From: a virus
DNA length: 25,188 nucleotides
Direction: 5' to 3' (one strand)
IMG/VR virus record: IMGVR_UViG_3300036862_000007
Location: 1 to 25,188 of that record
The position numbers and the translations under genes were made by a program. The first letter of the stretch is position 1. Each line of letters starts with the position of its first letter. The notes beneath the pieces are model-generated. The model had not been told where the DNA came from. It saw nothing but the letters and a program-made list of their open reading frames with translations, and made no database searches. Of this stretch, positions 1 to 20,095 are shown piece by piece.

Positions 1-120
1 CCCAAAAGGTTTAGAGAGGCTAGGGCAACCGGATAGCTAGCAAAGCTAAAACGGCAATGCGTCACTCTCACAGAAAGGAACCCCGGTAAACACAACACTA
101 GCCAACCGGGGCTAAACAAT

Positions 121-309
121 CTAACTCCGTAGCAAGGGTCTGCGATAGAGAGGATGACAAAACTAACAGGCGTCACCCTGTTAGGACAAAACATCCGGCT
201 AGTGACGTAGCAGGCGACGGGTTAAACCGTTCCGTAGACCCTTGCTAGGGAGTTAGGTAGCCTCCGGCCACAAGCTGCGAGAGAGGCAACGCAGACCGCC
301 TAACTCCCT
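121..309 (+). ncRNA. Long-range stem with an alternative pairing partner
   Basis: 121-141 and 236-256 are complementary over 21 positions with a single G-G mismatch. Inside are a perfect 8-bp hairpin (163-170/177-184) and GGATG/CATCC arms (152-156/192-196). The right arm segment 247-256 (AGGGAGTTAG) is also perfectly complementary to 300-309 (CTAACTCCCT). It can therefore pair with 121-128 or with 300-309, but not both. This is seen directly in the sequence. A switching or folding role for an RNA is inferred. Confidence 0.5.
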
Positions 310-313
310 AATA

Positions 314-374
314 GATGCTAACGTAATGACCTAGATGATCCCGTCCGAGAGCAGGCTTTAGGTGCGTTAGCATC
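314..374 (+). ncRNA. Stem-loop with 10-bp perfect closing stem
   Basis: GATGCTAACG at 314-323 pairs perfectly with CGTTAGCATC at 365-374. Within the 41-nt loop, ACCTA (329-333) and TAGGT (359-363) can pair, giving a two-tier structure. Its right arm could also pair over six bases (TTAGCA) with the TGCTAA arm of the next hairpin at 401-406. The pairing is visible directly. The function is unknown. Confidence 0.45.
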
Positions 375-398
375 ATAAATCCCCCTTACGGGTGATAG

Positions 399-431
399 CG
401 TGCTAAGCGTAGCCCTGCTACGTTTAGCATG
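399..431 (+). repeat. Stem-loop before first gene (hairpin family A, copy 1)
   Basis: Fourteen base pairs (399-412 with 418-431, including two G-U pairs) enclose a 5-nt loop. The flanking text GATAGCGTGCTAAGC and GTTTAGCATGTA recurs in copy 2 at 914-957, while the loop-proximal bases differ but still pair. That covariation suggests an RNA structure under selection. The ribosome binding site AAAGGA of the gene at 458 follows about 10 nt downstream. Confidence 0.55.
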
Positions 432-457
432 TAATCAACGAAAGGAAACCGCACAAA

Positions 458-736
458 ATGGAATACGCTAACGGAACCTCGTTAGAGTTTTCCCAACCGT
501 GGGGCTTTACCTGCAAAGGCAAAGCAGTTTGCCCCGATGGAAGGGTTAGAGCGTTTCGCGGTGGTACCGCAGATACGTTCTTTTCAATCCCTACGCGCGT
601 GAGCGCAAAGGGGACTACTGTTACAGGTTATGTCACAGTAGAGTCTGAGCAGGGATACTCAGTACCTACCGACGACGACCCTGCAATCGTCAAATTCTTC
701 CCGTACCATTACGGGAAGAATTGGGAGTTGGTGTAA
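458..736 (+). CDS. Hypothetical 92-aa protein
   Basis: The family is not recognised. The ORF starts at ATG after a GAAAGGAAA ribosome binding site. Alternating hydrophobic and polar residues with many Gly, Thr and Val suggest a small beta-rich soluble protein. It has two cysteines (in FTCKG and AVCPDG) and no signal peptide or membrane segment. It is the first gene after the structured region, and its stop abuts the ATG of the next gene directly (TAAATG), so the two are probably translated together. Confidence 0.7.
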   Translation: MEYANGTSLEFSQPWGFTCKGKAVCPDGRVRAFRGGTADTFFSIPTRVSAKGTTVTGYVTVESEQGYSVPTDDDPAIVKFFPYHYGKNWELV

Positions 737-907
737 ATGCAAAAACGTTACAAGTACAATCCGTATTTCTGGATGGACTATTATTGGAACAGGTTCCTGT
801 GTCTATTCAGTCTGCATATCTGGATTTACCTTCCAGAGAAGCACTGTTACGACGAGGATGATGTACCGGGCGAGATAATTTGCGCCTGCTGTTCCAAAAA
901 GCCATAG
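737..907 (+). CDS. Hypothetical 56-aa aromatic/Cys-rich protein
   Basis: The start codon immediately follows the stop of the upstream gene, with GGGAG as a plausible Shine-Dalgarno inside that gene. The N-terminal half is very rich in Tyr, Trp and Phe and includes a hydrophobic stretch (residues about 20-32). The C-terminus carries CACC, which with an earlier Cys could bind metal. The family is not recognised. The stop codon lies in the first arm of the hairpin at 906-925, so translation to the end would disturb that structure. Confidence 0.6.
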   Translation: MQKRYKYNPYFWMDYYWNRFLCLFSLHIWIYLPEKHCYDEDDVPGEIICACCSKKP

Positions 908-954
908 CACGCTTGATAGCGTGCTAAGCATGTGCCGCGCGCATGTTTAGCATG
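906..954 (+). promoter_or_regulatory. Two mutually exclusive hairpins (family A, copy 2)
   Basis: Hairpin 1 pairs AGCACGC (906-912) with GCGTGCT (919-925) around a 6-nt loop. Hairpin 2 pairs 920-934 with 940-954 (15 pairs including G-U) around a 5-nt loop. Both need bases 920-925, so only one can form. Hairpin 1 includes the last bases of the upstream stop codon. Hairpin 2 lies before the AAAGGAGGTG ribosome binding site of the gene at 986. The layout resembles a translation-coupled attenuator, which is an inference. Confidence 0.5.
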
Positions 955-985
955 TAGTCCGGCATCCCAGAAAGGAGGTGAACCA

Positions 986-1156
986 ATGAAGATTGGAGTA
1001 AATTTGTTTATCGCAGGAATCTGTCTAATGTTTTTTGGGATAGTTGGTATCCCGGTTTTGTTTCTGCTGTTCCTAATCATAGGAGCATTCTTCAAGTACG
1101 TAGCAATCGGCTTCCTAATTATCGTCGGGATGATTGCTCTGGCTAAGAAACAATGA
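986..1156 (+). CDS. Small membrane protein, 56 aa
   Basis: The start is the ATG 5-6 nt after a near-perfect AAAGGAGGTG ribosome binding site. An in-frame ATG further upstream at 932 lies inside the hairpin and is unlikely. Almost the whole protein is hydrophobic: one long segment at residues about 6-36 and a second at about 39-52, ending in a positive AKKQ tail. This predicts one or two transmembrane helices in the host inner membrane. Its stop overlaps the next start (ATGA). The role is unknown. Small early membrane proteins of phages can act on host envelope functions, but nothing here shows that. Confidence 0.75.
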   Translation: MKIGVNLFIAGICLMFFGIVGIPVLFLLFLIIGAFFKYVAIGFLIIVGMIALAKKQ

Positions 1157-1326
1157 AGGAGAAAAACTCGATATATCTTAACAAAGAGAGTATTCTCCTT
1201 GTGCAAGAACTTAAGTCCGACGACGAAACGGTCAGCGCATTCTTTCAGCGAGTGTTAAAAGAGTACGCTGCAACGCAAGGGCTGTCAGTTGAAACAGTCA
1301 CAAGGGTGATCAGAAAGCAAGTCTAA
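1153..1326 (+). CDS. Putative ribbon-helix-helix-like small protein, 57 aa
   Basis: The gene is coupled to the upstream membrane protein by an ATGA overlap. The layout is a short beta-like segment (SIYLNKES, residues 6-13) followed by two predicted amphipathic helices (about 14-22 and 26-41) and a third basic helix at the C-terminus. This resembles CopG/Arc ribbon-helix-helix DNA-binding proteins, but the match is by pattern only. If correct it would be a dimeric transcription regulator. Its last codons and stop overlap the first arm of the structured element at 1316-1461. Confidence 0.6.
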   Translation: MKEKNSIYLNKESILLVQELKSDDETVSAFFQRVLKEYAATQGLSVETVTRVIRKQV

Positions 1327-1461
1327 TCTAGGCTTGCTAAGCTAGTGAGTCTAAGACCTAGTTAACCCAAGGGCATGGGAGTAGTAGTTCTAGACAACGC
1401 TACTGTCACTAGGCGTCCACATTAGCCAGGGACATGACTCACTAGCTCAGCAAACCTAGAT
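1316..1461 (+). promoter_or_regulatory. Long stem with competing upstream hairpin
   Basis: 1326-1351 pairs with 1436-1461 over 26 positions with two mismatches (C-A and A-C). On the minus strand those two would be G-U pairs. Internal arms CCTAGT/ACTAGG and GTAG/CTAC could add branches. Upstream, AGCAAG (1316-1321) can pair with CTTGCT (1333-1338), which uses the left arm of the long stem, so the two folds compete. The AAAGGAGGG ribosome binding site of the next gene follows directly at 1465-1473. Confidence 0.5.
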
Positions 1462-1478
1462 CGGAAAGGAGGGTTGTT

Positions 1479-1676
1479 ATGGTCAATGGTTTGACACACG
1501 GCGATAGCGTAGCGATTCATTTTACTACGGAAACCGCCGGCCCGTATGTACTGCATGGCAGTTTTGTCAATCAGGATGAGGAATATGTCCGGATTGAGGG
1601 AACTGTTGGTGATACTCTTGGGCACGAAATGTTCGTGCCTAAGTCACAGATCAAGTTCATCGAACGTTACACATGA
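1479..1676 (+). CDS. Hypothetical 65-aa protein
   Basis: ATG start with AAAGGAGGG a few bases upstream. The sequence reads like a small beta-barrel (repeating short strands: DSVAIHF, YVLHGSF, YVRIEGTV, MFVPKSQIKFIE), similar in texture to SH3-like or Sm-like folds. No specific family is recognised. There are no cysteines and no membrane segment. The stop overlaps the next start by ATGA. Confidence 0.65.
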   Translation: MVNGLTHGDSVAIHFTTETAGPYVLHGSFVNQDEEYVRIEGTVGDTLGHEMFVPKSQIKFIERYT

Positions 1677-1840
1677 CCCCAACATGGGACATTATTGTTC
1701 CAATCAAAGATTCAGAGGGTAGGATCGTTGATTGGAAGCTAGCCGGCCGTGTTTTGGCTGCTACGCTTGATGACGCAATCCGTTTTGCTAAGCGCAATTA
1801 CGGATTGGAGGCGGATATCCAATCCAGCTCCGGCCGTTAA
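1673..1840 (+). CDS. Hypothetical 55-aa protein
   Basis: The gene starts within an ATGA overlap with the preceding gene. The protein has a beta-like N-terminus (TWDIIVPIKDSEGRIVDWK) and an alpha-helical middle (LDDAIRFAKRNYG), a pattern seen in many small phage proteins of unknown role. It ends with a short Ser-rich tail. A promoter (1848-1876) lies immediately after the stop, so this gene closes the first small operon. Confidence 0.6.
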   Translation: MTPTWDIIVPIKDSEGRIVDWKLAGRVLAATLDDAIRFAKRNYGLEADIQSSSGR

Positions 1841-1847
1841 CTCGGAC

Positions 1848-1876
1848 TTGACTTTCCGGCGGTTTTGTGCTATACT
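1848..1876 (+). promoter_or_regulatory. Sigma-70-type promoter
   Basis: TTGACT (1848-1853) and TATACT (1871-1876) are separated by 17 bases, with TGC directly before the -10 (extended -10). Transcription would start near 1883 and run through a 110-nt structured leader into the gene at 1995. The same layout and the same TGC before the -10 occur at 6774 and 9999. Confidence 0.8.
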
Positions 1877-1882
1877 CCGGAG

Positions 1883-1994
1883 AGGTGGGTTTCCGCACTA
1901 ACCTTCGTCTGGAGCTTAGTGCCCTGTGGGCCTCTTACCACGGAACCCGCTGTTGTCAAATCAGACAACGCCGTAACAACGAAAGGGGGTGTAA
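1883..1994 (+). ncRNA. Structured 5' leader of the 1995 gene
   Basis: An outer stem pairs 1885-1894 with 1942-1950 with one bulged T. Inside it, GCACTAA (1895-1901) pairs perfectly with TTAGTGC (1916-1922). A separate hairpin pairs GTTGTC (1952-1957) with GACAAC (1964-1969). The ribosome binding site GAAAGGGGG follows at 1981-1989. The leader starts at a strong promoter and is long for a phage gene of this size, so it may have regulatory function. Confidence 0.45.
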
Positions 1995-2270
1995 GTGGCT
2001 ACTAAGGGTGTTACGTGGGATCGCATAGATAGCGAGTTCTGCGAGAAACAGATTAACAAGATCAACAAGCGGCTTGGTCTTAGAAAGAACGATGACGGTA
2101 AGTACGAGTACGACAAGGACATGATTGCTTACTGTGCTGCGATTTTCGAGGCCGGTAGGCAGGCTGAGCGTGAAGCGATATTGAAAAACACGCAAAGTCG
2201 AATCGCGCGCGGCAACACAGAACACGAGCAACGTAGGGAAAAAAGAACAACGCAAACACAAGCAGCGTAA
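1995..2270 (+). CDS. Hypothetical 91-aa charged protein
   Basis: GTG start after AAAGGGGGTG with suitable spacing. It is probably alpha-helical and highly charged. Residues about 10-30 are Lys/Arg/Ile-rich, the middle (DKDMIAYCAAIFEAGRQAER) looks like an amphipathic helix, and the tail is basic and Gln/Thr-rich. The family is not recognised. It is the first gene after the promoter at 1848 and so is probably expressed strongly and early. Confidence 0.65.
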   Translation: MATKGVTWDRIDSEFCEKQINKINKRLGLRKNDDGKYEYDKDMIAYCAAIFEAGRQAEREAILKNTQSRIARGNTEHEQRREKRTTQTQAA

Positions 2271-2282
2271 ATTTCACAACAA

Positions 2283-2354
2283 CTAACCCCGGTAGTGGGG
2301 TTAGTGAGATAGTTTGGTGCCCTACTAGCTAGACTGTCTCACTAAACCCACTAC
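2283..2354 (+). promoter_or_regulatory. Competing hairpins (family B, copy 1)
   Basis: The main stem pairs 2292-2313 with 2333-2354 (22 positions, one G-A mismatch and one U-G pair). A competing hairpin pairs CTAACCCC (2283-2290) perfectly with GGGGTTAG (2297-2304), inside the main left arm. The loop and inner stem (GTGAGA, TTTGGTGCCC, TAGCTAGACTGTCTCAC) are nearly identical to copy 2 at 2879-2939. The ribosome binding site GAAAGGAG begins immediately after the right arm. Confidence 0.55.
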
Positions 2355-2366
2355 GAAAGGAGATAA

Positions 2367-2570
2367 ATGGCACAAAGGATTGGTATTTGGACAGTCCGTT
2401 TAATGCGTGAGGACGAACCTGACGAACCTTACGATCCACAGAGTATTAAGAAGTGGGACAATGAGAACGAGGATATCGTCAACAAGTTCATGGGCGATAT
2501 TAGCTTGGCTGAGGATAAGCTTAGCTCGGTATTGCCAGACGGATACTATGTCAAGATCGAGGACTACTAA
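2367..2570 (+). CDS. Hypothetical acidic 67-aa protein
   Basis: ATG start after GAAAGGAGATAA. A short N-terminal beta segment (RIGIWTVRLM) is followed by an acidic, Pro-containing region and a helix, ending in YYVKIEDY. The family is not recognised. It is strongly acidic, with no membrane or metal-binding motif. It is followed after 14 nt by the next gene. Confidence 0.65.
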   Translation: MAQRIGIWTVRLMREDEPDEPYDPQSIKKWDNENEDIVNKFMGDISLAEDKLSSVLPDGYYVKIEDY

Positions 2571-2584
2571 GAAAAGAGGTTAAT

Positions 2585-2860
2585 ATGTCCGAGATTGAAA
2601 CAGAAACAACTCAGGAAGTCGAGACAAGAACTTTCATCTGCTTCAAAGAACAGCCTAACGGCGATCTTAAGAGGATGGGAGAACTTGTCACCGAAGACAA
2701 GTACAGTCCTAGTGCCGATGAATTCGGTACGAAGTGGGGCAGCGGAGTTTACTGGTACTTTGATAACAAGCCTTCGTATGGTTACACCATGCGAGCCATC
2801 AGGGTCGAGTCAACTACGTACTTCAGCGAAGACTACAAGTACGGTCGAGCAGAAGACTAA
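2585..2860 (+). CDS. Hypothetical 91-aa protein
   Basis: ATG start after AAAAGAGG. The N-terminus is Glu/Thr-rich. The rest has a beta-rich look with clustered aromatics (GVYWYFDNKPSYGYTMRAI). The family is not recognised. A longer overlapping frame at 2595-2918 runs into the hairpin downstream and has poor start context, so it is treated as a shadow. Confidence 0.65.
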   Translation: MSEIETETTQEVETRTFICFKEQPNGDLKRMGELVTEDKYSPSADEFGTKWGSGVYWYFDNKPSYGYTMRAIRVESTTYFSEDYKYGRAED

Positions 2861-2866
2861 AACCGC

Positions 2867-2939
2867 ACCAATCTCGCTCGGCGGGATTGGTGAGACAGTT
2901 TGGTACCCGGATAGCTAGACTGTCTCACTAATCCCACCG
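2867..2939 (+). promoter_or_regulatory. Competing hairpins (family B, copy 2)
   Basis: The main stem pairs 2879-2899 with 2919-2939 (21 positions, one C-A mismatch and one G-U pair). A competing hairpin pairs ACCAATC (2867-2873) with GATTGGT (2885-2891), using the main left arm. The outer stem bases differ from copy 1 yet still pair, while the inner stem and loop are almost unchanged. The ribosome binding site GAAAGGAGG begins at 2940. Confidence 0.55.
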
Positions 2940-2957
2940 AGAAAGGAGGTAACTGGG

Positions 2958-3155
2958 ATGACAGTAATAGAGCCCATGTTTTTCAAGGCGCATTACGAGA
3001 TCATCGCTGATGCGATAGCCGAAGAGCACAACAAGGGTGGTAAGGATGCTAAGATCGCTCTTGAAACTTTGGCTCTTAAGTTTTCAGTGATCTTTTCACA
3101 TGACAACGTGAACTTCGATCAAAAGAAGTTCCTTCAACGTTGCGGAATGGTATGA
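2958..3155 (+). CDS. Conserved phage-type hypothetical, 65 aa
   Basis: ATG start after AAAGGAGGTAACTGGG. The pattern (FFKAHYEIIADAIAEEH, then ALKFSVIFSHDNVNFDQKKF followed by LQRCG) matches a type of short helical protein common in actinobacterial phages and plasmids, with a conserved NxxFDxxxFLxxCG ending. Its function is unknown. The stop overlaps the next start by ATGA. Confidence 0.75.
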   Translation: MTVIEPMFFKAHYEIIADAIAEEHNKGGKDAKIALETLALKFSVIFSHDNVNFDQKKFLQRCGMV

Positions 3156-3499
3156 GAAGCCACGATGAAGTAAAAGACGAGGCTTACTACTGGAGAGAAG
3201 TAATAAAAGACTGTGGTAGCCTCAACGAGATAATCCACGAAATGGGTGAGATTATCCGTGACGTGGCTGTTAATATTCCATCATCTGCACTAGCAATGAT
3301 GGACGCAGTTTTGGAAGGTCCGACAGAAAACGCCACCATGAAACCCTATGACTTGCTAGGTGAGCAGGTTGAGCACGTCAAGAGTTTGCAGGAAATTATC
3401 CTTGAAAAGATGTTTCCGGTGATTCATGGTCTTCTTGAACTTGCAAGCGGTAGGGTCAAGATGCTGCAAGAGGAAATGGATGGTGACGATGCAAGCTAA
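3152..3499 (+). CDS. Hypothetical helical 115-aa protein
   Basis: The chosen start is the ATG overlapping the upstream stop (ATGA). A TTG 12 nt upstream is also in frame but has no better support. The protein looks wholly alpha-helical with heptad-like hydrophobic spacing in the second half (about 70-110), suggesting a coiled coil or four-helix bundle. The family is not recognised. Confidence 0.65.
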   Translation: MRSHDEVKDEAYYWREVIKDCGSLNEIIHEMGEIIRDVAVNIPSSALAMMDAVLEGPTENATMKPYDLLGEQVEHVKSLQEIILEKMFPVIHGLLELASGRVKMLQEEMDGDDAS

Positions 3500-3971
3500 C
3501 GCATTGTGGGCAGGTAATGATTATGCCTACATACACGACCGTGGGAATTTAACTTTTTCCTACAGCGCGCAAAGAGTGCGTGTCATGCGTGTTTTCAAGA
3601 GAAGAGAAAACACTTGGAGTCAACGTATGAAGACTTACGTTGATGTTATCGTCCTTGACAATGATGGCACACCGAAATTGCGTGATAATGGGCAGCAGAT
3701 TTCCAAGACAGTGGTTGCTAGGGATATCGTGTCCGAGTGGGAAGAATACGCTGATGAGCGTGGACACCGAGAAGAAACAGCTCGCAAAGCCAGAGAGGAA
3801 TCACAACGTAAAGCAGCTGCTTTTGCTGCTGAGAGTGAAACAATCATGAATGGGTTGGAAAGGCTTGGCATCCCTAGAGATGCTATCTCCTTTCCAGCCT
3901 ATGAACATGACTCCATCAAGCTTAAGAGGGAGGTGATTCTAAATTGGATGAAAAACGCAAGCTCAGTTTGA
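3480..3971 (+). CDS. Hypothetical 163-aa protein with helical Ala/Glu/Arg region
   Basis: The chosen start is ATG 3480, which has AGAGG about 6 nt upstream. ATG 3489 is an alternative, and the frame is open further upstream without a good ribosome binding site. Residues about 1-85 look beta-rich (VDVIVLDNDGTPKLRDNGQ). Residues about 88-125 form a highly charged helix (YADERGHREETARKAREE), probably a coiled coil. A short C-terminal domain follows. It overlaps the upstream gene by about 20 nt and the downstream gene by 28 nt. The function is unknown. Confidence 0.6.
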   Translation: MVTMQANALWAGNDYAYIHDRGNLTFSYSAQRVRVMRVFKRRENTWSQRMKTYVDVIVLDNDGTPKLRDNGQQISKTVVARDIVSEWEEYADERGHREETARKAREESQRKAAAFAAESETIMNGLERLGIPRDAISFPAYEHDSIKLKREVILNWMKNASSV

Positions 3972-4246
3972 GCGAGGTAAACTCCTTGCTCCACAAGTCT
4001 GAGCATACCAGAATAGCCCCGCTGACTCAGTCAGACGAGGCTTACAGGCGTAGCGCAGTTGACCTGCTTAACCTTCTTGACAAGAAAGTCAAGAGTGTTT
4101 TTGTGGGTGGCATCGAGGTAGTTGCGACAAAAAGGCCAGACAGCGATACGATGTATATCCGTCCTAAGGAGGGTTTTGTGCCCTGTGGGTGGATTGATCG
4201 TAGTTGGCTCGACGAGAACATCGTGCGTAAGACTAAGAGGGGGTAG
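3944..4246 (+). CDS. Hypothetical 100-aa protein
   Basis: The start is TTG at 3944, placed 8 nt after GGGAGGTG, which lies inside the preceding gene. No ATG in frame has a comparable site. The N-terminus is helical and Lys/Ser/Leu-rich. The second half is beta-like with clustered aromatics and one Cys (FVPCGWIDRSW). The family is not recognised. Confidence 0.6.
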   Translation: MDEKRKLSLSEVNSLLHKSEHTRIAPLTQSDEAYRRSAVDLLNLLDKKVKSVFVGGIEVVATKRPDSDTMYIRPKEGFVPCGWIDRSWLDENIVRKTKRG

Positions 4247-4247
4247 C

Positions 4248-4448
4248 GTGCGAACACCAAAAAACTATGCAACTATGCTTAACGATCCTGACTTCATATT
4301 CAGGATTGGTAGGTTGCATGGTGCAGCAGAGCAGGCTGCAATCTTGCTAACTAAGCAAGAAAATCCTGATGTGAAGACTATAGGCGAAAACCTAGCTGCT
4401 CACACTGACTGGTTTTTCATGGACGATAAAGTAAAGGGGGTGAAATGA
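4248..4448 (+). CDS. Hypothetical 66-aa helical protein
   Basis: The most likely start is GTG at 4248, two bases after the upstream stop and after AAGAGGGGG. The open frame extends to 4122, but that part overlaps the upstream gene and has unlikely composition. The protein appears helical (DPDFIFRIGRLHGAAEQAAI, then NPDVKTIGENLAAHTDWFF). The family is not recognised. Its stop overlaps the DUF2786 gene start. Confidence 0.55.
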   Translation: MRTPKNYATMLNDPDFIFRIGRLHGAAEQAAILLTKQENPDVKTIGENLAAHTDWFFMDDKVKGVK

Positions 4449-5179
4449 CAACAGAACAGCAAGATAAGATGTATAACCGTATTCGTGGTCTTTTGCGTAA
4501 GGCGGAAGGTACGAATAACGAGCATGAAGCAGAGGCTTTCTTTGCTAAGGCTCAGGAACTCATCATGCGTTATGCAATTGATGAGGAGCGTATGTGGTCT
4601 GACGATCCTGAGAAGCGTAGTAAGATTGAAACGCTTAACATAAAGATCGTGGATCGTTCGGCTGGAGCCGATTACAAGCGTAAGATCCTGAACGCTTGTG
4701 CTAGGTCTAACCGCTGTCAGATGTGGTATAGTCCCGGCATGGATCAGAGCACGTTAGCAGGCTACAGCAGCGATATCTTGTTTGTGGAGATGCTTTACAA
4801 GAGTATCGTAACACAGATGAATTTCAAGATGGCGTTTGCTCAGGCGGTAAGCAAGGGAGTTCACCACAAAACGTTTAAGAATTCTTTTATCGCCGGTTTT
4901 TCTAGCAGGATTTCTATGCGGTTCGGTGAGATGAACCGTAAGAAGATGGATGACCTTGCTAGTGAGGGTACTGGTATGGAGCTTATTCTCGCTGATAGAG
5001 CGGCCAAGGTCGCTCAATGGGTTGACGAGAACATTCGTCTAGGCCGTGCCAGGTCTACTGGCTCTCGCAATATTGACGCCGGTGCCTACAGTAGTGGTAC
5101 TAACGCGGCTAACCAGACGGATATTTCTGGCGGCCGTGGCAGGGTAACACGAAGCGAACAGAAAGGGCTAGGTAGATGA
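4445..5179 (+). CDS. DUF2786 domain protein, 244 aa
   Basis: Residues about 8-46 match the DUF2786 pattern (RIRGLLRKAEGTNNEHEAEA followed by FFAKAQELIMRYAIDEERMW). This domain is widespread in actinobacterial phages and some bacteria and has no established biochemical role. The central part (about 60-200) is mixed alpha/beta with DYKRKIL, SDILFVEMLYKS and an Arg/Lys-rich helix. The C-terminus (200-244) is Gly/Ser/Arg-rich and probably flexible. The start is ATG after AAAGGGGGTGAA. It overlaps its neighbours on both sides (ATGA type), in an operon with zinc-ribbon mini-proteins. Confidence 0.85.
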   Translation: MTTEQQDKMYNRIRGLLRKAEGTNNEHEAEAFFAKAQELIMRYAIDEERMWSDDPEKRSKIETLNIKIVDRSAGADYKRKILNACARSNRCQMWYSPGMDQSTLAGYSSDILFVEMLYKSIVTQMNFKMAFAQAVSKGVHHKTFKNSFIAGFSSRISMRFGEMNRKKMDDLASEGTGMELILADRAAKVAQWVDENIRLGRARSTGSRNIDAGAYSSGTNAANQTDISGGRGRVTRSEQKGLGR

Positions 5180-5403
5180 GTAACATCATATGGGAAGACC
5201 CGCCTTTGGAGAAGTATTCAAAGGCCGAAACCCATGAATGCAGGGTTGAGGAAGAAACATGCGATAAGTGTGGCAACACGGCTTTCCAGCTATCGTGTGT
5301 ATGTGGCTGGAAAGATAGTGCTGCCATTGAATCGCTTGCCCGAAAAAAGTGGGTAAAACACGTCAACGACGTAAAAACATGGATAAGGAATCATCCCCGA
5401 TGA
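5176..5403 (+). CDS. Zinc-ribbon-like protein with CxCGW, 75 aa
   Basis: Cysteines occur as CDKCGN (C-x2-C, about residues 29-32) and CVCGW (about 41-44), with later His residues in a C-terminal helix (WVKHVNDVKTWIRNH). This is a compact zinc-binding arrangement seen in actinobacterial phage mini-proteins. CVCGW plus a His-containing helix recurs in the 11125 gene. Nucleic-acid or protein binding is likely but unproven. It starts in an ATGA overlap with the DUF2786 gene. Confidence 0.7.
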   Translation: MSNIIWEDPPLEKYSKAETHECRVEEETCDKCGNTAFQLSCVCGWKDSAAIESLARKKWVKHVNDVKTWIRNHPR

Positions 5404-5558
5404 TAGACAAGTGTAGTCTTTGTGAGGAAGTTAAGGAGCTTCCTTACAAAACACCGTATGAGCCACCATGGTATTACGGTGGTCGCCATTGCGAGGATTG
5501 TGAGCATTGGCTACAGACGGGCGAACTAACTAAGTACGGTAGGAGGGAGGGCAGATAG
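5400..5558 (+). CDS. Zinc-finger-like mini-protein, 52 aa
   Basis: The start is the ATG in the ATGA overlap with the upstream stop. The longer frame from 5349 is rejected because it lies inside the previous gene. Two C-x2-C pairs (CSLC near residue 5 and CEDC near residue 32) are separated by about 24 residues, with a His just before the second (RHCEDCEHW), forming a likely single zinc site. The family is not recognised. Confidence 0.65.
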   Translation: MIDKCSLCEEVKELPYKTPYEPPWYYGGRHCEDCEHWLQTGELTKYGRREGR

Positions 5559-5559
5559 T

Positions 5560-5835
5560 GTGCAAAAGCGCCTAGACAATGCCACCATCGCCGGCTTGCT
5601 AGCGAAGGATAAGGAACGCAAGCCGAAACAGCCGAAAGACGTAACAGAGCCGCGTGACTATCAAACGTGGTTCAAACTCAGAACTACAGTTAGAGAAAAC
5701 GGCTGTGAGAACCCTAATTGTCACGATCCGCGGCCCAAGAGTGACTACGGAACTGGCGTTGTATACCAGATAAAGGGACAGTTCATCTGTCGCTATTGTT
5801 TTCTGGAGGGCTACCTGAGTGAACGAGCATCGTAA
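5560..5835 (+). CDS. Zinc-binding phage protein, 91 aa
   Basis: GTG start one base after the upstream stop, with GGAGGGAGGG upstream. The N-terminal helix (NATIAGLLAKDKERKPK) is followed by a linker and a Cys4-type site: CENPNC and CRYC about 30 residues apart, with GxGVVYQIKGQFICRYC between. The layout resembles the 14934 gene (NxxIAxLLA..K start, then CxxxxC and GQPYC), so the two are probable distant paralogs. Function unknown. Confidence 0.7.
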   Translation: MQKRLDNATIAGLLAKDKERKPKQPKDVTEPRDYQTWFKLRTTVRENGCENPNCHDPRPKSDYGTGVVYQIKGQFICRYCFLEGYLSERAS

Positions 5836-6238
5836 GACAGAGTACCTCTCACATGCTATGAAACTGTGGGAGGTACTCTACGAGGGTTCTAACGATGAGC
5901 ACGTTTGGACGGGCTTATTGCAAGATGCCGAACGTGAAGCAGGACTGTCAAGAGCACAACGAGATAAGGCGATAAAGTTTCTCAAAAAGACCGAATGCAT
6001 AGACTCGGTAAGAGTGGGAAATCGTTACGGAGCAACTGAGCTGATTCTTAACCGGCCGCCGACCGCCGAAGATTTATCGGAATTCCTCTTGACAAATCGC
6101 CGCCCGACTGGTAAGCTTGAGCGCAGAGTGATCCGCCTAGAGGAACGGATAGGAGGTGCTAATATCGTAGAGGCGATAGCCGCTCTAGACGCTCGCATTA
6201 CCAAGATCGAAAACATCAATAACGAGGGGGATTCATGA
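5819..6238 (+). CDS. Winged-helix protein with C-terminal coiled coil, 139 aa
   Basis: GTG start overlapping the end of the upstream gene by 17 nt. Residues about 10-75 have helix-turn-helix character: EAGLSRAQRDKAIKFLKKTE is a recognition-helix-like segment followed by a possible beta wing (SVRVGNRYGATELILN). Residues about 98-135 (LERRVIRLEERIGGANIVEA) form a coiled coil, suggesting oligomerisation. It is probably a DNA-binding regulator or replication accessory. The assignment is by pattern only. Confidence 0.65.
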   Translation: MNEHRKTEYLSHAMKLWEVLYEGSNDEHVWTGLLQDAEREAGLSRAQRDKAIKFLKKTECIDSVRVGNRYGATELILNRPPTAEDLSEFLLTNRRPTGKLERRVIRLEERIGGANIVEAIAALDARITKIENINNEGDS

Positions 6239-6603
6239 GTACACAGCTTCCAGGGTCTTCACTTGATCCAAGTCGTATTCAGCAGTTGCTTAAAAAGGGT
6301 CGTACCCGTGGTGACTATGAAGGCGTCATTAGGGCATTTCTGGAGAGCAGCGAGGCAGGTATCGAGGTTCCGCTTGATAGCGGTCCGTTCGCTGGCAAGA
6401 CAGGCGAGCAAGTCAAGATCGGTCTTGACAATGCTCGCAAGCGTGTTGACGGTAAGACAGGTCAGCCCGCTATCGAGGGTGGACATGCGCTCAAGGTAAT
6501 TAAGGAGGGTAACTCCGAGAAGAACGAAGAGCAGCACGTCTATCTTATCGACACTCGTAAGGTAGAAATGCCTGAGGGTGCAGAGGCCGAGGTTCCAGCG
6601 TAG
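6235..6603 (+). CDS. Hypothetical 122-aa protein
   Basis: ATG start in an ATGA overlap. A helical N-terminus (SRIQQLLKKGRTRGDYEGVI) is followed by a basic segment with GPFAGKTGEQVKIGLDNARK and a beta segment near the C-terminus (HVYLIDTRKVE), ending in an acidic tail. It has the look of a small nucleic-acid-associated protein, but no family is recognised. Confidence 0.65.
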   Translation: MSTQLPGSSLDPSRIQQLLKKGRTRGDYEGVIRAFLESSEAGIEVPLDSGPFAGKTGEQVKIGLDNARKRVDGKTGQPAIEGGHALKVIKEGNSEKNEEQHVYLIDTRKVEMPEGAEAEVPA

Positions 6604-6626
6604 GTTTAACTCGGGAGGCGTGGGGT

Positions 6627-6839
6627 ATGATAACAACTATGACAACTTCATACTCCACGCCTGACGAGTTCTACCGCGCACAAGTAGCCCTGTGGGGTTT
6701 TGAGGCGATAAGCGAGCTTCTCGACCTTGGATGGGTTATCGTGTTTAAGCCCGATAAGGGGTGGACGTGGGACTTGACAAATGGCTCGGAGTCTGCTAGG
6801 CTCCATCCAAGCGGTGATAGGGAGGCTAATGGCTCTTAA
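6627..6839 (+). CDS. Hypothetical 70-aa protein
   Basis: ATG start after CGGGAGG with about 8 nt spacing. It is soluble and aromatic-rich (DEFYRAQVALWGFEAISELL, then WVIVFKPDKGWTWDL). The family is not recognised. The last third of this gene contains the promoter at 6774-6802, and its stop overlaps a 24-codon ORF. Confidence 0.65.
   Translation: MITTMTTSYSTPDEFYRAQVALWGFEAISELLDLGWVIVFKPDKGWTWDLTNGSESARLHPSGDREANGS
6774..6802 (+). promoter_or_regulatory. Sigma-70-type promoter upstream of the Rpf-like gene
   Basis: TTGACA (6774-6779) and TAGGCT (6797-6802) are 17 bases apart, with TGC before the -10 as at 1848 and 9999. The -35 is consensus and the -10 is weak. Predicted start is near 6809, inside the end of the upstream gene, giving the exported protein its own transcript. 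Confidence 0.6.
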
Positions 6840-6903
6840 ACCTCGTGCGGTGGTTTATTACCTTAGCCTCCCTGATCCGCGTACCGGCCATGTAAACAAC
6901 TAA
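6829..6903 (+). CDS. Possible 24-aa leader peptide
   Basis: ATG follows GGGAGG with a short 3-nt spacer and overlaps the stop region of the 6627 gene. The peptide is MALKPRAVVYYLSL followed by PDPRTGHVNN. It would be the first ORF on the transcript from the 6774 promoter, and it ends 10 nt before the TTG of the Rpf-like gene, so it may couple translation. It could also be chance. The short spacing lowers confidence. Confidence 0.35.
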   Translation: MALKPRAVVYYLSLPDPRTGHVNN

Positions 6904-6913
6904 GGGGGTAGTA

Positions 6914-7261
6914 TTGTTGCGGACGCTCGCAACTATTTGCGTCATCGCACTAATCGCAATAAGTACGAGCCAAGCACAAGCAGTAGCAAAGAAGTTAAGC
7001 AAAAAGATTTTCCCGGCATGGTGGTTAAAGGCAGCATTATGTGTCCACAAGTACGAAGGTAGTTGGCAAGACACAGGAGCACCATACTACGGAGGAATGC
7101 AGTTTGATATTCCAACGTGGTTAACGAACGGTGGTGGCAGGTATTCGTATTATCCTCATATGGCGTCGCCAACTAACCAACTTCGCATCGCCTATAAGTT
7201 GTGGCAGCGTCGGGGATGGTTTCCATGGCCTAACACGGCGAGGATGTGTGGGCTGATTTAA
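6914..7261 (+). CDS. Exported Rpf-like transglycosylase domain protein, 115 aa
   Basis: Residues 1-23 form a signal peptide (hydrophobic core ATICVIALIAIS, then SQAQA), so the protein is secreted. The mature part matches the resuscitation-promoting-factor/lysozyme-like fold: LCVHKYEGSW with the expected catalytic Glu48, YYGGMQF, and GWFPWPNTARMCGL at the end. Cys43 and Cys112 are placed for the family's disulfide. Such enzymes cut peptidoglycan of actinobacteria. The start is TTG 6914 after GGGGG, with a second TTG directly following. It lies among replication genes, far from the lysis cassette, with its own promoter. Confidence 0.85.
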   Translation: MLRTLATICVIALIAISTSQAQAVAKKLSKKIFPAWWLKAALCVHKYEGSWQDTGAPYYGGMQFDIPTWLTNGGGRYSYYPHMASPTNQLRIAYKLWQRRGWFPWPNTARMCGLI

Positions 7262-7271
7262 GGGGATAGTT

Positions 7272-7718
7272 ACGGAAGCGTGTTGTAACTGTGGTGAATT
7301 AGTAGTGGTGCTAGACCCAATAAGCGGGTGGTGTTATACCTGCGCGCCACCCGCTTGCATTAACTGTGGGGAGGAATTTAGTACCTATGGTCAGCGCAGG
7401 GATTTATGCCCTAAGTGCCGGCGAGAGTTATGGGATCAACATAATGCCGACGCGATAGAAAGATACATGGGAGTTGGGTTGACTCTTACACAAGCTAGGC
7501 TGTGCGTCAAAGAAGAAAATCGGCCTAGGTGCTTGTGTTGTGGTGAGCCCATCTTCTACGGTAATCCGGAGAAGGATAGGTTCTGCAAACGCACTGAGCT
7601 ATGTCGCAAAGCGGCAAGGAGGTACAAGTACTATAGGAGAGATAAGAAGTTTTCGCCAGAGTTAGCTCTGGCTCAAGTCGTACAGTCAATGACTGTACCT
7701 ACTCGGGAGATAGTATGA
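7272..7718 (+). CDS. Triple zinc-ribbon protein with probable ACG start, 148 aa
   Basis: Three Cys4-type sites are visible when read from ACG 7272: C4/C7 with C21/C24, C29/C32 with C46/C49, and a third with C87, C89/C90, C105 and C111. A basic helix (CRKAARRYKYYRRDKK) follows. The first ATG/GTG/TTG in frame is GTG 7305, which would remove the first CxxC pair and has a poor ribosome binding site. ACG 7272 lies 6 nt after AAGGGG. A conservative annotation would be 7305-7718. It is probably nucleic-acid binding. The stop overlaps the helicase start (ATGA). Confidence 0.65.
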   Translation, partial: TEACCNCGELVVVLDPISGWCYTCAPPACINCGEEFSTYGQRRDLCPKCRRELWDQHNADAIERYMGVGLTLTQARLCVKEENRPRCLCCGEPIFYGNPEKDRFCKRTELCRKAARRYKYYRRDKKFSPELALAQVVQSMTVPTREIV

Positions 7719-9265
7719 GCAAGTTCGAGATAACACCGTGGCAGCTTGAGGACTTGCAACAGTTGGTTGGGCGAGATGGCTCAGCTAACTGGAGCGAGAT
7801 GGGCTGTTACAAAACCACCACAGGGCTGTGGCTCATGGAGGGTAAGGTCCGTAACCTTGAGAACCCCAATGTTCTCATTGTGACCACTAAGTCTGGTAAG
7901 GGAACTTTCTTCCAGATTGCCCCAGAGCTTTTCCCTGAATGGTACTTGTTCAACTTGGGAACTACTGCTCTCATGTATGTCAAGGATGGCGAAGAGCACA
8001 AGATTGATAAATTCGTTCCGGACGTGTTCGACATGCCAACCATCGTAGTCACTCATTACGATGTGTTCAGCGACAGCAACAAGAACAAATACGAAACGGA
8101 CAGTCAAGGTAATCTGCTAAGAATCAATGGTAAGTTGCTTCCTAAGCAGAAGAAAGCTTGTGACTATATCCTCGACAGAGAGTGGGATTTTGTGTGGCTG
8201 GACGAAGCACACAGAATCAAGAATAAGGATACCAAGTGGACAAGCAATCTCAAGAAGATCAAGACAAAACAGCGCCATATCTCGACTGGTACTGGTATCA
8301 TCAACAGGCCATCTGAGTTGTGGTCGCTCTTGAACTTCTTGAACAAGAAGGAGTATCCATCCTTCAATCGGTTCAAGGACAAGTATTCCTTGATAGACAT
8401 TTGGGATGGGTATGGCAAGGAGATTGGTATCAATCCTGCGTACAAGGACGAGTTGCGAGACATCGTCTTTAATATCGGAGTGCGTAGGACACTAGACGAG
8501 GTTATGCCTTGGATTCAGAAACCAATCTTTATGAAGTACGACGTTGATCTTAACCCGATTCAGCGTAAGATGTACGACGAGATCAAGGCCGAGTTGTTGA
8601 CGTATGATCGTAATGGTCTACCGATTCACTCGCCTAACGTCTTGTCAGCACTCATGCGACTGAGGCAGGTTACTGTAGCAACTCCGGAAATCGAAGAGGA
8701 CTACTTCGATGAGAAGCTTGGCAGGCGAATCCAGAAGATTCGTTTGAAGGAACCGTCCTCTAAGCTCGATACCGTCATGGAAATCATAGAGGGTCTTGAG
8801 TGGGACGAAGAGAGTAAGCAACCTCTCGTAGTATTCTCATGCTTCAAAGATCCATTGGAGTTGCTTAAGGCAAGGCTGGATGAATCTGGTACTAGTTACA
8901 TTCATCTTGAGCAAAAGGACAACGATCAAGAGCGTAAGCGAAAGTGGCTAGAGGAATTCCCGAAGATGAATCATCGGGTGTTCATGTCCACGCTCCAATT
9001 GGGAGGCGAGTCTATCAATCTCACTCCAGCAAGGCATGTAGTGTTCCTCGACAGGTCTTGGAGTCCTAAGGATAATTCGCAAGGTATTGGTAGGCTGCGT
9101 CGTCCTGGGCAAGAGGGACAGCCTGTTGTCATCAATGTCAACGGTAAGCATACAACTGACCAGCGGATTGAATCCGTGGTAATGCAGAAACAGTCATGGT
9201 TCAATGAGTTGTTCGGTAAGGATGAAAGCATTACCGATGACATGGAGGAGATGATGGCAGCATGA
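7715..9265 (+). CDS. SNF2-family helicase/ATPase, 516 aa
   Basis: This is a superfamily 2 DNA translocase. Visible motifs: a Walker A variant SEMGCYKTTT (residues 27-36, Lys33; usual form MGLGKT), motif II DEAH (163-166), motif III region ISTGTGIINRPSELWSLLNF, and the C-terminal RecA-like domain with LGGESINL, FLDRSW and motif VI QGIGRLRRPGQ (456-466). The length suits compact phage SNF2 helicases. It probably remodels or unwinds DNA during replication or recombination. It is coupled by ATGA overlaps to the zinc-ribbon gene upstream and a small gene downstream. Confidence 0.92.
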   Translation: MSKFEITPWQLEDLQQLVGRDGSANWSEMGCYKTTTGLWLMEGKVRNLENPNVLIVTTKSGKGTFFQIAPELFPEWYLFNLGTTALMYVKDGEEHKIDKFVPDVFDMPTIVVTHYDVFSDSNKNKYETDSQGNLLRINGKLLPKQKKACDYILDREWDFVWLDEAHRIKNKDTKWTSNLKKIKTKQRHISTGTGIINRPSELWSLLNFLNKKEYPSFNRFKDKYSLIDIWDGYGKEIGINPAYKDELRDIVFNIGVRRTLDEVMPWIQKPIFMKYDVDLNPIQRKMYDEIKAELLTYDRNGLPIHSPNVLSALMRLRQVTVATPEIEEDYFDEKLGRRIQKIRLKEPSSKLDTVMEIIEGLEWDEESKQPLVVFSCFKDPLELLKARLDESGTSYIHLEQKDNDQERKRKWLEEFPKMNHRVFMSTLQLGGESINLTPARHVVFLDRSWSPKDNSQGIGRLRRPGQEGQPVVINVNGKHTTDQRIESVVMQKQSWFNELFGKDESITDDMEEMMAA

Positions 9266-9998: not shown

Positions 9999-10027
9999 TT
10001 GACATTCGGCCTCCGATCTGCTATGAT
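9999..10027 (+). promoter_or_regulatory. Sigma-70-type promoter for the long right operon
   Basis: Consensus TTGACA (9999-10004), 17-base spacer, TATGAT (10022-10027), with TGC before the -10. Transcription would begin near 10034. The leader contains a perfect 6-bp hairpin CCGCTC/GAGCGG (10053-10058/10067-10072) just before the ACGGAGG ribosome binding site. No other strong promoter is seen until 23.9 kb, so this probably drives most replication genes. Confidence 0.8.
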
Positions 10028-17564: not shown

Positions 17565-19772
17565 GTGTCAACATCGGTAAGCTCTACACGAGGGAAATTT
17601 TTTGAGTATCTATTTGGGGATCATAAAGGCAACGTTTGTATAGCTTACGCTCCTCCGACTAAAACACAGTTCAAGCAGGCATTTTGGGAGTGGCCTCGGG
17701 CTAAAAGTAGTATGGGGGCTTTCGTAGACCAAATAAGCCACGGACACAATGTTTGGTTTGGCGTGAATCTTTTGAGCAAGCCGGAGCGCAGAAAAGAAAA
17801 TACGTTGCCAGGATATATCGTGTGGGCAGACCTTGATACCGTTGAACCTGTCGGCATAGACCCTCCGCCGTCTTGCGTTGTTAAGAGTTCCCCCGGTCGC
17901 TTTCAGGGTTATTGGCGTTTGGACAAATTGATTGTCCCTGAAGCACAGGAAGAGTTTTCTCGTAAACTTGCCTACAAGTATCACTTCGATAAAAGCGGTT
18001 GGGACTTGACTCAGATTTTAAGAGTTCCTTACACTTTCAACTACAAACCGGAGTACGAGCGCCAAGGCGAAGACCCTCCCGCTGTGGAGATTGTTTGGGC
18101 TAAAGAGGAACTATATTCTACCGACGTTTTTGAGAGGATCGTGATTCACGATCCTTACGCCAGCAAGGATGTTGTAACGAATAAGCCTCTCCCGGAGATT
18201 AAGAGTCTACCCTCCGTATCGGAGGTACAACTCAAATACATCTCTAGTATTACCCCTTCCTTCCACGAACTTTTCGAGCTAGAGCCCGGTAAGGGAGATG
18301 ACTGGTCTAGAAAGATTTGGCGGTTTATCAACTTTTGCCTCGAAATAGGCATGAGCGAGGAAGAAACCCTCGTTATGGCTATGAACGCAAAATGCAATAA
18401 ATACGAGCGCGATCATAGACCACTAAGTCATCTGTGGAAAGAAGTGCTTAAGGCTAGTGAGAGGCAACAGGTAGTTGTCGGTTTCCAAGACGGTAGGCCG
18501 GCTTTCAAGCTAGAGATGCCTAAGCTGGTTGACGATGAAGAAATTGGCAATCCGTTTGTCATGGAATACAAGGCTTGGGCTATGGAAAGGACTGACGCTC
18601 CTCCCCAATATCACGAGCTTTGCGCTGCTATTCTGCTAAGCGCACTTCTTTCTCCCCGCCTAAGACTGGAAACATCTTCGGGAGAAGTTATCCCTAACCT
18701 CTGGGGCATTATTCTTGGTGGTTCCACGTTAGCACGCAAGAGCACGTCCATGGGTTATATGCACGATATCCTGCTTGAGTTCGATCGGGAGTTAATCCTT
18801 GCTCAAGATGCCTCTCCGGAAGGCTTGCTATTTGCGCTATCGCAAAGACCCCACAGGGTGAGCATGTTCTACCGTGACGAGCTATCCGGGTTTTTGAAGT
18901 CTCTGCGAAGCAAGAAGTATAACGTCGATCTGCCGGAGCTTCTTGCTAATCTGTACGACGCTCCTGCTACAATGACCAGGCTTCTTCGTAAAGAAACTCA
19001 TACCCTGCTTAGACCGTTTTTCATCATTATGGGCGCAGGAATCCGCGACGCAGTCTACGCAGAAATTGAGGAAGATTGGATCACAGGCGGGTTTATCCCC
19101 CGTTTCCTCGTTGTTAGTGGAGATACGACTAGAGATCAACGACGGAGAACAGGCCCACCAGTACCCGGTAACTTCGAGAAACGCCAAAACATCATAAAAA
19201 GGTTGGCGGACGTTATTGAGAGATACGAGGTTACGACCAATATCAAGACTATCTCCGGCGTTCACCAGCAAACCGACTTCGTAACGGCTTATCTTAGTGA
19301 GGGGTCTTGGGAGCTTTACGGAGAATATGAGGACAAGCTAGAGATAGCAGCGGAGAAAAGTATTGTTCAGACTGTCGCTTTTCCGACATTCGCACGTCTA
19401 TCAAGTTCCCTGCTCAAACTAGCTACGTTGTTTTCGGCTCTAAGATCAACGCCAAACGATGAAAACGCCATCGAGGTAATAGAGCGTGACCTAATCGAAG
19501 CGGCGTACTATATTCAAAAGTGGGGAAAACACGCCGTCGAACTGGTACTCTATGCCGGCAAGGCCGATATCGACAAAAAGAGTGACCGGGTTTACGAGTT
19601 TATTAGGAACAAGCCTGGAGTTAACCAGACAGAGGTTTTCTACAGGCTGCATCTTCGATCTATGGAGGGAAAGGAAATCATCGCTACTTTGGTAGATAGA
19701 GGACAAATCTATCAACTGACTGAAAAGGGCCAGGGCACTAGATTTTACGCTTACACTGAGAGGACTGTATGA
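17565..19772 (+). CDS. Primase-helicase (AEP-like primase plus RKST-type P-loop), 735 aa
   Basis: GTG start after GGAAAGGG. Residues about 20-170 resemble archaeo-eukaryotic/RepB-type primase: VWADLD with Asp89/Asp91, SSPGRFQGYW (108-117) and WDLTQILRVPYTFNYK. Residues about 340-560 form a DUF3987-like ATPase with a Walker A variant GGSTLARKST (385-394) and a Walker B-like FYRDELSGF near 438. The C-terminus (about 670-730) has winged-helix character (KPGVNQTEVFYRLHLRSMEG). It probably primes and unwinds at the fork. ATGA overlap with the next gene. Confidence 0.82.
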   Translation: MSTSVSSTRGKFFEYLFGDHKGNVCIAYAPPTKTQFKQAFWEWPRAKSSMGAFVDQISHGHNVWFGVNLLSKPERRKENTLPGYIVWADLDTVEPVGIDPPPSCVVKSSPGRFQGYWRLDKLIVPEAQEEFSRKLAYKYHFDKSGWDLTQILRVPYTFNYKPEYERQGEDPPAVEIVWAKEELYSTDVFERIVIHDPYASKDVVTNKPLPEIKSLPSVSEVQLKYISSITPSFHELFELEPGKGDDWSRKIWRFINFCLEIGMSEEETLVMAMNAKCNKYERDHRPLSHLWKEVLKASERQQVVVGFQDGRPAFKLEMPKLVDDEEIGNPFVMEYKAWAMERTDAPPQYHELCAAILLSALLSPRLRLETSSGEVIPNLWGIILGGSTLARKSTSMGYMHDILLEFDRELILAQDASPEGLLFALSQRPHRVSMFYRDELSGFLKSLRSKKYNVDLPELLANLYDAPATMTRLLRKETHTLLRPFFIIMGAGIRDAVYAEIEEDWITGGFIPRFLVVSGDTTRDQRRRTGPPVPGNFEKRQNIIKRLADVIERYEVTTNIKTISGVHQQTDFVTAYLSEGSWELYGEYEDKLEIAAEKSIVQTVAFPTFARLSSSLLKLATLFSALRSTPNDENAIEVIERDLIEAAYYIQKWGKHAVELVLYAGKADIDKKSDRVYEFIRNKPGVNQTEVFYRLHLRSMEGKEIIATLVDRGQIYQLTEKGQGTRFYAYTERTV

Positions 19773-20095
19773 GCACGCACGATAAGATCACAGCTACTAA
19801 CTCGTTAATCGAGCAAGAACTTAAACAGTGGGAAGAGATCGGCGCTACACCGCAGAATATCCAGGTAGACTCGTTTATCCTCGATGCGTTTATAAACTCG
19901 CTAGCGGCATTTCTCGTAGATAAGGGCATCATAGACGATGAAGAATTCACGCTCGCGTTTAAGGAACGTCTACTCGGTAACCTCATAAAATTCCGTGAGG
20001 ATGTTGTCGAGCCTGGAATGGCGGAAATGCGTAGACAGCAAATCGTCAACGGTCTTCCTAACCAAGATATCCCCAAGAAACGAAGAATGCATTGA
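19769..20095 (+). CDS. Hypothetical 108-aa protein
   Basis: ATGA overlap start between primase-helicase and polymerase. Helical and acidic at the N-terminus, with FILDAFINSLAAFLVDKGII, and a basic tail (PKKRRMH). It could be a replication accessory factor by position only. The family is not recognised. Confidence 0.65.
   Translation: MSTHDKITATNSLIEQELKQWEEIGATPQNIQVDSFILDAFINSLAAFLVDKGIIDDEEFTLAFKERLLGNLIKFREDVVEPGMAEMRRQQIVNGLPNQDIPKKRRMH

Follow-up and report, generated by a model that had tools for sequence, protein, structure and literature searches.

A polar three-arm RNA element at gene junctions of an uncultured soil-phage group, with a possible role in intercistronic mRNA processing

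The early messenger RNA (mRNA) of phage T7 carries RNase III processing hairpins between its genes. In attenuators of the trp and ermC type, arm 2 pairs with either arm 1 or arm 3, and sometimes a fourth arm takes part. The mycobacteriophages of cluster K carry ESAS repeats, which are 17-bp imperfect inverted repeats with a variable spacer (Pope et al. 2011, PMC3203893; survey PMC12699233). Some of the non-structural genes have such a repeat directly upstream of the translation start; the repeats are conserved along with the downstream gene and are of unknown function (PMC3203893, PMC12699233). Here we describe an element of the gene junctions of a phage, termed A-B-C, in which a middle arm B can pair either with an upstream arm A or with a downstream arm C. 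It was found in a 25,188-base virus record from IMG/VR (IMGVR_UViG_3300036862_000007, the whole of which is termed “the window”), and the same layout recurs in related soil phages.

At four junctions of the window, J1 to J4, arm B of a long B:C stem also pairs with an upstream arm A. The original prediction had placed four sets of paired, mutually exclusive hairpins close to these positions, and they are indeed present. The short upstream hairpins are real as well, but their lengths had been understated; the A:B helices have 9, 10, 10, and 12 bp at J1 to J4, with loops of 3–4 nt. They are found at 905–913/918–926 in J1 (9 bp, loop TGAT, P = 0.0075), at 1316–1325/1329–1338 in J2 (10 bp, loop ATC, P = 0.0035), at 2282–2291/2296–2305 in J3 (10 bp, loop GTAG, P = 0.0030), and at 2866–2877/2881–2892 in J4 (12 bp, loop TCG, P = 0.0005), where the null for each P value shuffles only the 45 nt upstream of B. 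The B:C stems of the window contain 17–27 pairs and are placed before a Shine–Dalgarno sequence (SD), which at each of the four junctions lies 0–15 nt past the right arm, in agreement with a predicted distance of a few to about 15 bases.

All arms are on the + strand. At J1, arm A (905–913) includes the stop codon TAG (905–907) of gene 737–907, arm B spans 915–935 in the fold, and arm C spans 939–959; the SD, GAAAGGAGG at 970–978, starts 10 nt later and is followed by the ATG at 986. At J2, arm A (1316–1325) overlaps the stop codon TAA (1324–1326) of gene 1153–1326, so that the upstream hairpin takes in the previous stop at two junctions, as had been claimed. Arm B of J2 (1326–1351) is separated by a loop of 84 nt from arm C (1436–1461), after which come the SD GGAAAGGAGG (1463–1472) and the ATG at 1479. 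The stop codon TAA at 2268 lies 14 nt before arm A of J3 (2282–2291). The first four bases of its arm B (2292–2318) double as the A:B loop, and arm C (2328–2354) is followed by the SD GAAAGGAG (2355–2362) and the ATG at 2367. At J4 the stop codon TAA at 2858 lies 8 nt before arm A (2866–2877); arm B (2877–2904, from the fold) and arm C (2914–2941) precede a second copy of the SD GAAAGGAGG (2941–2949) and the ATG at 2958. The minimum-energy fold at each junction is the B:C stem, with A unpaired with B. Whole-hairpin B:C folds are −25.9, −58.4, −41.4, and −47.2 kcal/mol for J1 to J4, and the corresponding A:B folds are −14.9, −12.6, −16.1, and −19.4 kcal/mol.

The common plan of the four junctions holds, and a fifth junction, J0, adds a long stem at 398–432 (398–413/417–432, + strand), after which come GAAAGG and then the beginning of gene 458–736. 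The J0 stem is a paralogue of the J1 long stem. No A arm precedes it, the best candidate reaching 5 bp. A second pair of paralogues, J3 and J4, has diverged to 82% identity over 74 nt, and the four junctions are therefore not fully independent. Most of the differences between J3 and J4 preserve pairing. Within A:B, two pairs differ at both bases and two at a single base, none is broken, and all 10 pairs are kept; within B:C, three pairs have changed on both sides and each copy has one mismatch. These compensatory changes indicate that both alternative helices are maintained. Searches of viral contigs with exact patterns, taken from the right arm of J3/J4 and the left arm of J0/J1, gave no match, and so there is no sign of a fixed-sequence mobile element.

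Window genes 2585–2857 and 4445–5176 had zero relatives among viral contigs. For this reason, related phages were sought through the helicase and the family A DNA polymerase (PolA) of the window, by which 57 and 22 relatives, respectively, were fetched from viral contigs, with most of the larger contigs covered nearly whole. The arms of J1 to J4 have next to no sequence in common, so the search relied on a structural scanner, controlled by shuffling, in place of a covariance model. A match needed 9 bp or more in A:B, 16 pairs or more in B:C, and overlap between the right arm of the A:B hairpin and the B:C stem. On the helicase- or PolA-bearing strand, 1.14 Mb of soil-phage contigs yielded 31 matches to the A-B-C layout (23 unique), of which the window, after viewing which the thresholds were chosen, supplied only three. 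A:B reaches at least 12 bp in 20 of the 31. In forty dinucleotide shuffles the mean was 0.4 matches and the maximum 2. The layout is polar, with only 6 matches to its mirror image in the same 1.14 Mb. When 108 unique stems were oriented, 27 had an A arm upstream and 5 a mirror arm downstream, against 1.0 and 1.5 expected from shuffled flanks. The contigs are mutually related, so neither these counts nor the pair counts given below are fully independent events. Seven segments of cultured phages (320 kb) gave two doubtful hits, one of them high in GC and the other an imperfect one in Arthrobacter phage Rings.

The dimensions of the element are more regular than its letters, and arm sequences differ widely even among the elements of one genome. 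B:C has a median length of 21 bp (17 to 34 bp), with some loops longer than 80 nt. A:B has a median of 13 bp (9–17 bp), which is below two helical turns, and its arm ends at a median of 0.48 along the B:C stem. In 94% of elements the predicted stability of B:C exceeds that of A:B, with medians of −34 and −19 kcal/mol. The stop codon of the preceding gene lies upstream of A in 29 of the 31, usually 8–18 nt before it. Just two of the 31 have this codon within A or at its beginning, and in this J1 and J2 are atypical. Among long stems of the relatives in general, counted on both strands, there is a local length peak at 21 pairs (52 stems versus 31 at 20 pairs), or about two A-form turns.

Imperfect pairs reveal the molecule under selection. 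Selection on RNA of the coding strand should leave G.U deviations, and selection on DNA should leave G.T and A.C equally; the searches scored G.U and A.C alike. Read in the coding-strand orientation, the long stems hold 107 G.U versus 48 A.C deviations (P about 1e-6). Orientation by the downstream SD gives 43 versus 13, and the A:B hairpins alone hold 23 versus 7. The G.U excess on the coding strand indicates selection on the sense RNA. The A-B-C element is thus a polar RNA structure of the sense strand, and it is almost certainly real and selected. Rfam returned no family match at the gathering threshold and, at E<=1, only a chance match to a miRNA precursor (E=0.05) far below its threshold.

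The plan is also conserved at a homologous junction upstream of the helicase. Relatives of the small gene at 6235–6603 are present in 27 of 29 genomes. Of the 24 genomes in which the sequence past its stop codon could be read, 18 have an A-B-C element directly after that codon, as counted by hand from the junction sequences with the near-identical G001 and G002 taken as one, and two further genomes have a bulged A:B at the same junction. The arms are mostly unrelated in sequence from genome to genome, and the plan is unchanged: the stop codon, usually 8–18 nt, arm A (pairing with B over mostly 12–17 bp), a B:C stem of about 21 bp, and often an SD 0–30 nt further on. In G011 the conserved small gene is followed directly by five arms in a chain, in which neighbors pair with each other (L112 1778–1963; G011 about 21778–21963), with A:B of 17 bp, B:C of 18, C:D of about 6, and D:E of 20. 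The window’s own copy, at 6608–6670 (+ strand), has a stem of 21/23 pairs and no A. The SD and ATG of gene 6627–6839 lie in the left arm of this stem, which possibly sequesters that SD in this phage. A layout that is kept while its letters change is a real RNA device, whose role we can only infer. The geometry in the original prediction has in this respect proved stronger than proposed, as it is RNA-level, polar, and conserved in relatives.

We favor the reading that A-B-C is an intercistronic element for mRNA processing and stabilization, with a probability of about 0.4. The order of folding, strand exchange, cleavage, and protection that we infer would run as follows. The small A:B hairpin (9–17 bp) would form once B is transcribed. 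When C emerges, it would displace A and pair with B in a stem that is more stable (B:C, with a median of 21 bp or about two A-form turns). RNase III of the host, or a similar double-strand nuclease, may then cut B:C near the middle. On the upstream message, the remaining 5′ portion of B would re-pair with A to form a 3′-terminal hairpin just past the stop codon. Where an arm D exists, the 3′ part of C could pair with it to form a 5′ hairpin on the downstream message; candidate D arms are found in G001, G004, G006, and G031 (z −2.1 to −3.4). Given that B:C is predicted to be more stable than A:B, the A:B hairpin would matter only before C is made or after B:C is cut. The median B:C length of 21 bp and the A:B end at 0.48 suit the post-cut case, since with A:B ending in mid-stem, a cut through the middle of B:C would leave a strand on the upstream side that pairs with A. 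The B:C stem also resembles an intercistronic RNase III site in spanning about two helical turns between the stop codon and the SD. The usual position of A, 8–18 nt past the stop codon, and an SD accessibility that does not depend on the fold are likewise consistent with processing.

Several observations weigh against processing. A recognizable phage-encoded RNase III was found in 0 of 25, so that a host enzyme must be assumed. The stop codon lies inside A at J1 and J2, and the window’s own copy of the conserved junction has no A arm. B:C can be as short as 17 bp or as long as 34 bp, with loops of more than 80 nt in some cases. Only a subset of elements has a clear D arm, and the pooled C:D pairing is only slightly above shuffled stability (mean z −0.56).

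The original prediction took the paired hairpins for attenuators or ribosome-sensing switches, in which ribosomes on the upstream gene would block A and allow B:C, and without which A:B would form and change expression of the next gene. The alternative pairing does have the geometry of the trp and ermC leaders, the stop codon lies within A at J1 and J2, and the C:D hairpins of some relatives resemble a 3:4 stem. The mechanism is nonetheless improbable, and the prediction is probably wrong on this point. The U-run that it calls for is absent from the sense strand, with a mean of 1.45 T in the 8 nt after A:B and 1.74 after B:C versus a genome expectation of 2.1, and a scan found no terminator-like site on the sense strand at J1 to J4. 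Modeled accessibility of the SD is equal in the two folds (0.48 versus 0.45 across 16 elements), and a shift of more than 0.3 occurs in one of the 16 in each direction. The stop codon is upstream of A and outside it in 29 of 31 elements. An offset of 8–18 nt places A roughly where the front edge of a terminating ribosome would lie, so that A would mostly escape it, and with this spacing it is unlikely that upstream translation chooses the fold. Furthermore, B:C is far more stable, which leaves A:B only a short kinetic window. A general SD switch formed by the C:D arm was considered separately and rejected.

The main rival to processing is a pure folding relay or shield without cleavage, which we consider rather unlikely but less so than a sensor of translation. 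Here the junction RNA would stay double-stranded throughout transcription, with A covering B until C appears and the gap being shielded from Rho, single-strand nucleases, or ribosome read-through. A relay would account for the A arm, for the small loops, for the position of A immediately past a terminating ribosome, and for longer chains (A:B:C:D:E in G011, for example), and it is consistent with there being neither a U-run nor an SD switch. It leaves unexplained why B:C lengths cluster near 21 bp and why A:B ends in mid-stem, and many junctions in the same genomes bear single hairpins without A. A nascent-RNA binding site, at which a phage or host protein such as an anti-termination or RNA-chaperone factor would read the three-arm fold, is suggested by arm cores that recur across genomes (TAGGCTTAGT-like and TATGGGA/TCYCATA-like, noted by eye without statistics). 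Such a site seems improbable as well, as the arms vary widely between elements of one genome, no Rfam family matches, and no conserved unpaired motif was found. Finally, long inverted repeats are commonly operators, and template switching at palindromes can add a third partial arm, so that the element might be a DNA-level feature, be it an operator, a cruciform, or a by-product of template switching. This is very improbable and largely refuted by the coding-strand deviations, which are G.U and not A.C; by the polarity relative to transcription; by a layout conserved without sequence at the homologous junction; and by the compensatory changes between J3 and J4.

The A-B-C element is a repeated RNA layout kept by selection in an uncultured soil-phage group for which no close cultured relative was found, and the scanner is a sequence-independent route to finding it. 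If the proposed hairpin swap is true, it would give these phages a compact means of cutting a long operon into separately stable messages and would be an unusual natural case of RNA strand displacement.

Stable RNAs are predicted in some of the relatives. Several relatives have predicted tRNA genes (L160 2954–3026 and 3850–3920; L157 6245–6332; L114 1833–2834), and in G031 a predicted tRNA lies directly downstream of the A-B-C-D element. Separation of mRNA from stable RNA may therefore be a role of some elements. In G027 an ARAGORN prediction, which could be spurious, places a tmRNA with an unusual tag at L151 15383–15676, about 700 nt past the A-B-C element of that genome.

The window itself carries phage replication genes: an SNF2-type helicase (7715–9262), a primase (17565–19769), and a fusion of uracil-DNA glycosylase and PolA in a single open frame (20092–22434). 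The fusion product has an N-terminal domain of the uracil-DNA glycosylase superfamily (26–168) and a C-terminal family A DNA polymerase (398–774), and its full-length relatives share 42–63% identity. Window positions 1–8000 had zero DNA matches among 50,697 phage records, and no close cultured relative of the phage was found. Among the matches listed for cultured phages, identity is at most about 32% for the helicase and at most about 30% for PolA. No relatives of the helicase were found in bacterial genomes, and so no host is inferred. Positions 1–460 have no open reading frame of at least 40 codons on the + strand and fold strongly (−176.5 kcal/mol over 441 nt), with a stem at 119–144/233–258 (25/26 pairs) that overlaps another at 246–266/290–310; this stretch is possibly a structured non-coding RNA. 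Good sigma-70-like promoters with an extended −10 lie at 1848–1876 (TTGACT-17-TATACT) and 9999–10027 (TTGACA-17-TATGAT), each followed by a structured 5′ leader and then an SD, and a similar promoter is found in a relative (L009 about 7500–7530).

No account of a three-arm element at phage gene junctions emerged from literature searches of partial coverage. The original prediction that no such phage element is described is consistent with the literature reached, with one near relative, ESAS, that has a B:C-like repeat only. We tentatively suggest that A-B-C elements may constitute an RNA family of phages defined solely by architecture, in which three to five neighbor-complementary arms at gene junctions would swap partners in the nascent RNA and again after cleavage, leaving both products with hairpin ends. 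Compared with known systems, A-B-C resembles the RNase III hairpins of T7 in its intercistronic position, close in front of the following ribosome binding site, and in being repeated along an operon, as those hairpins are along the early operon. It differs in that the scanner found no three-arm exchange in T7, and in that cleavage of A-B-C is only presumed. With the trp and ermC attenuators it shares a middle arm that pairs with either neighbor, but no leader peptide, terminator tail, or difference in SD sequestration is seen in A-B-C. The nearest described element is ESAS, which is described as a B:C-like inverted repeat without a third arm (PMC3203893), and no A arm was found in the 30 kb scanned of the Anaya segment. 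ESAS arms share one consensus per genome and adjoin the 13-bp SAS. In the window, the SAS sequence GGGATAGGAGCCC has only 3-mismatch matches, fewer than chance and none at J0 to J4, and by eye the paralogue pairs J0/J1 and J3/J4 and the junction J2 have no half-site consensus in common. The likeness to ESAS is in the B:C stems of the window, which are inverted repeats of about 17 bp or more with a variable spacer before a translation start. For the mycobacteriophage ESAS repeats, still unexplained, the A-B-C elements may serve as a point of comparison.

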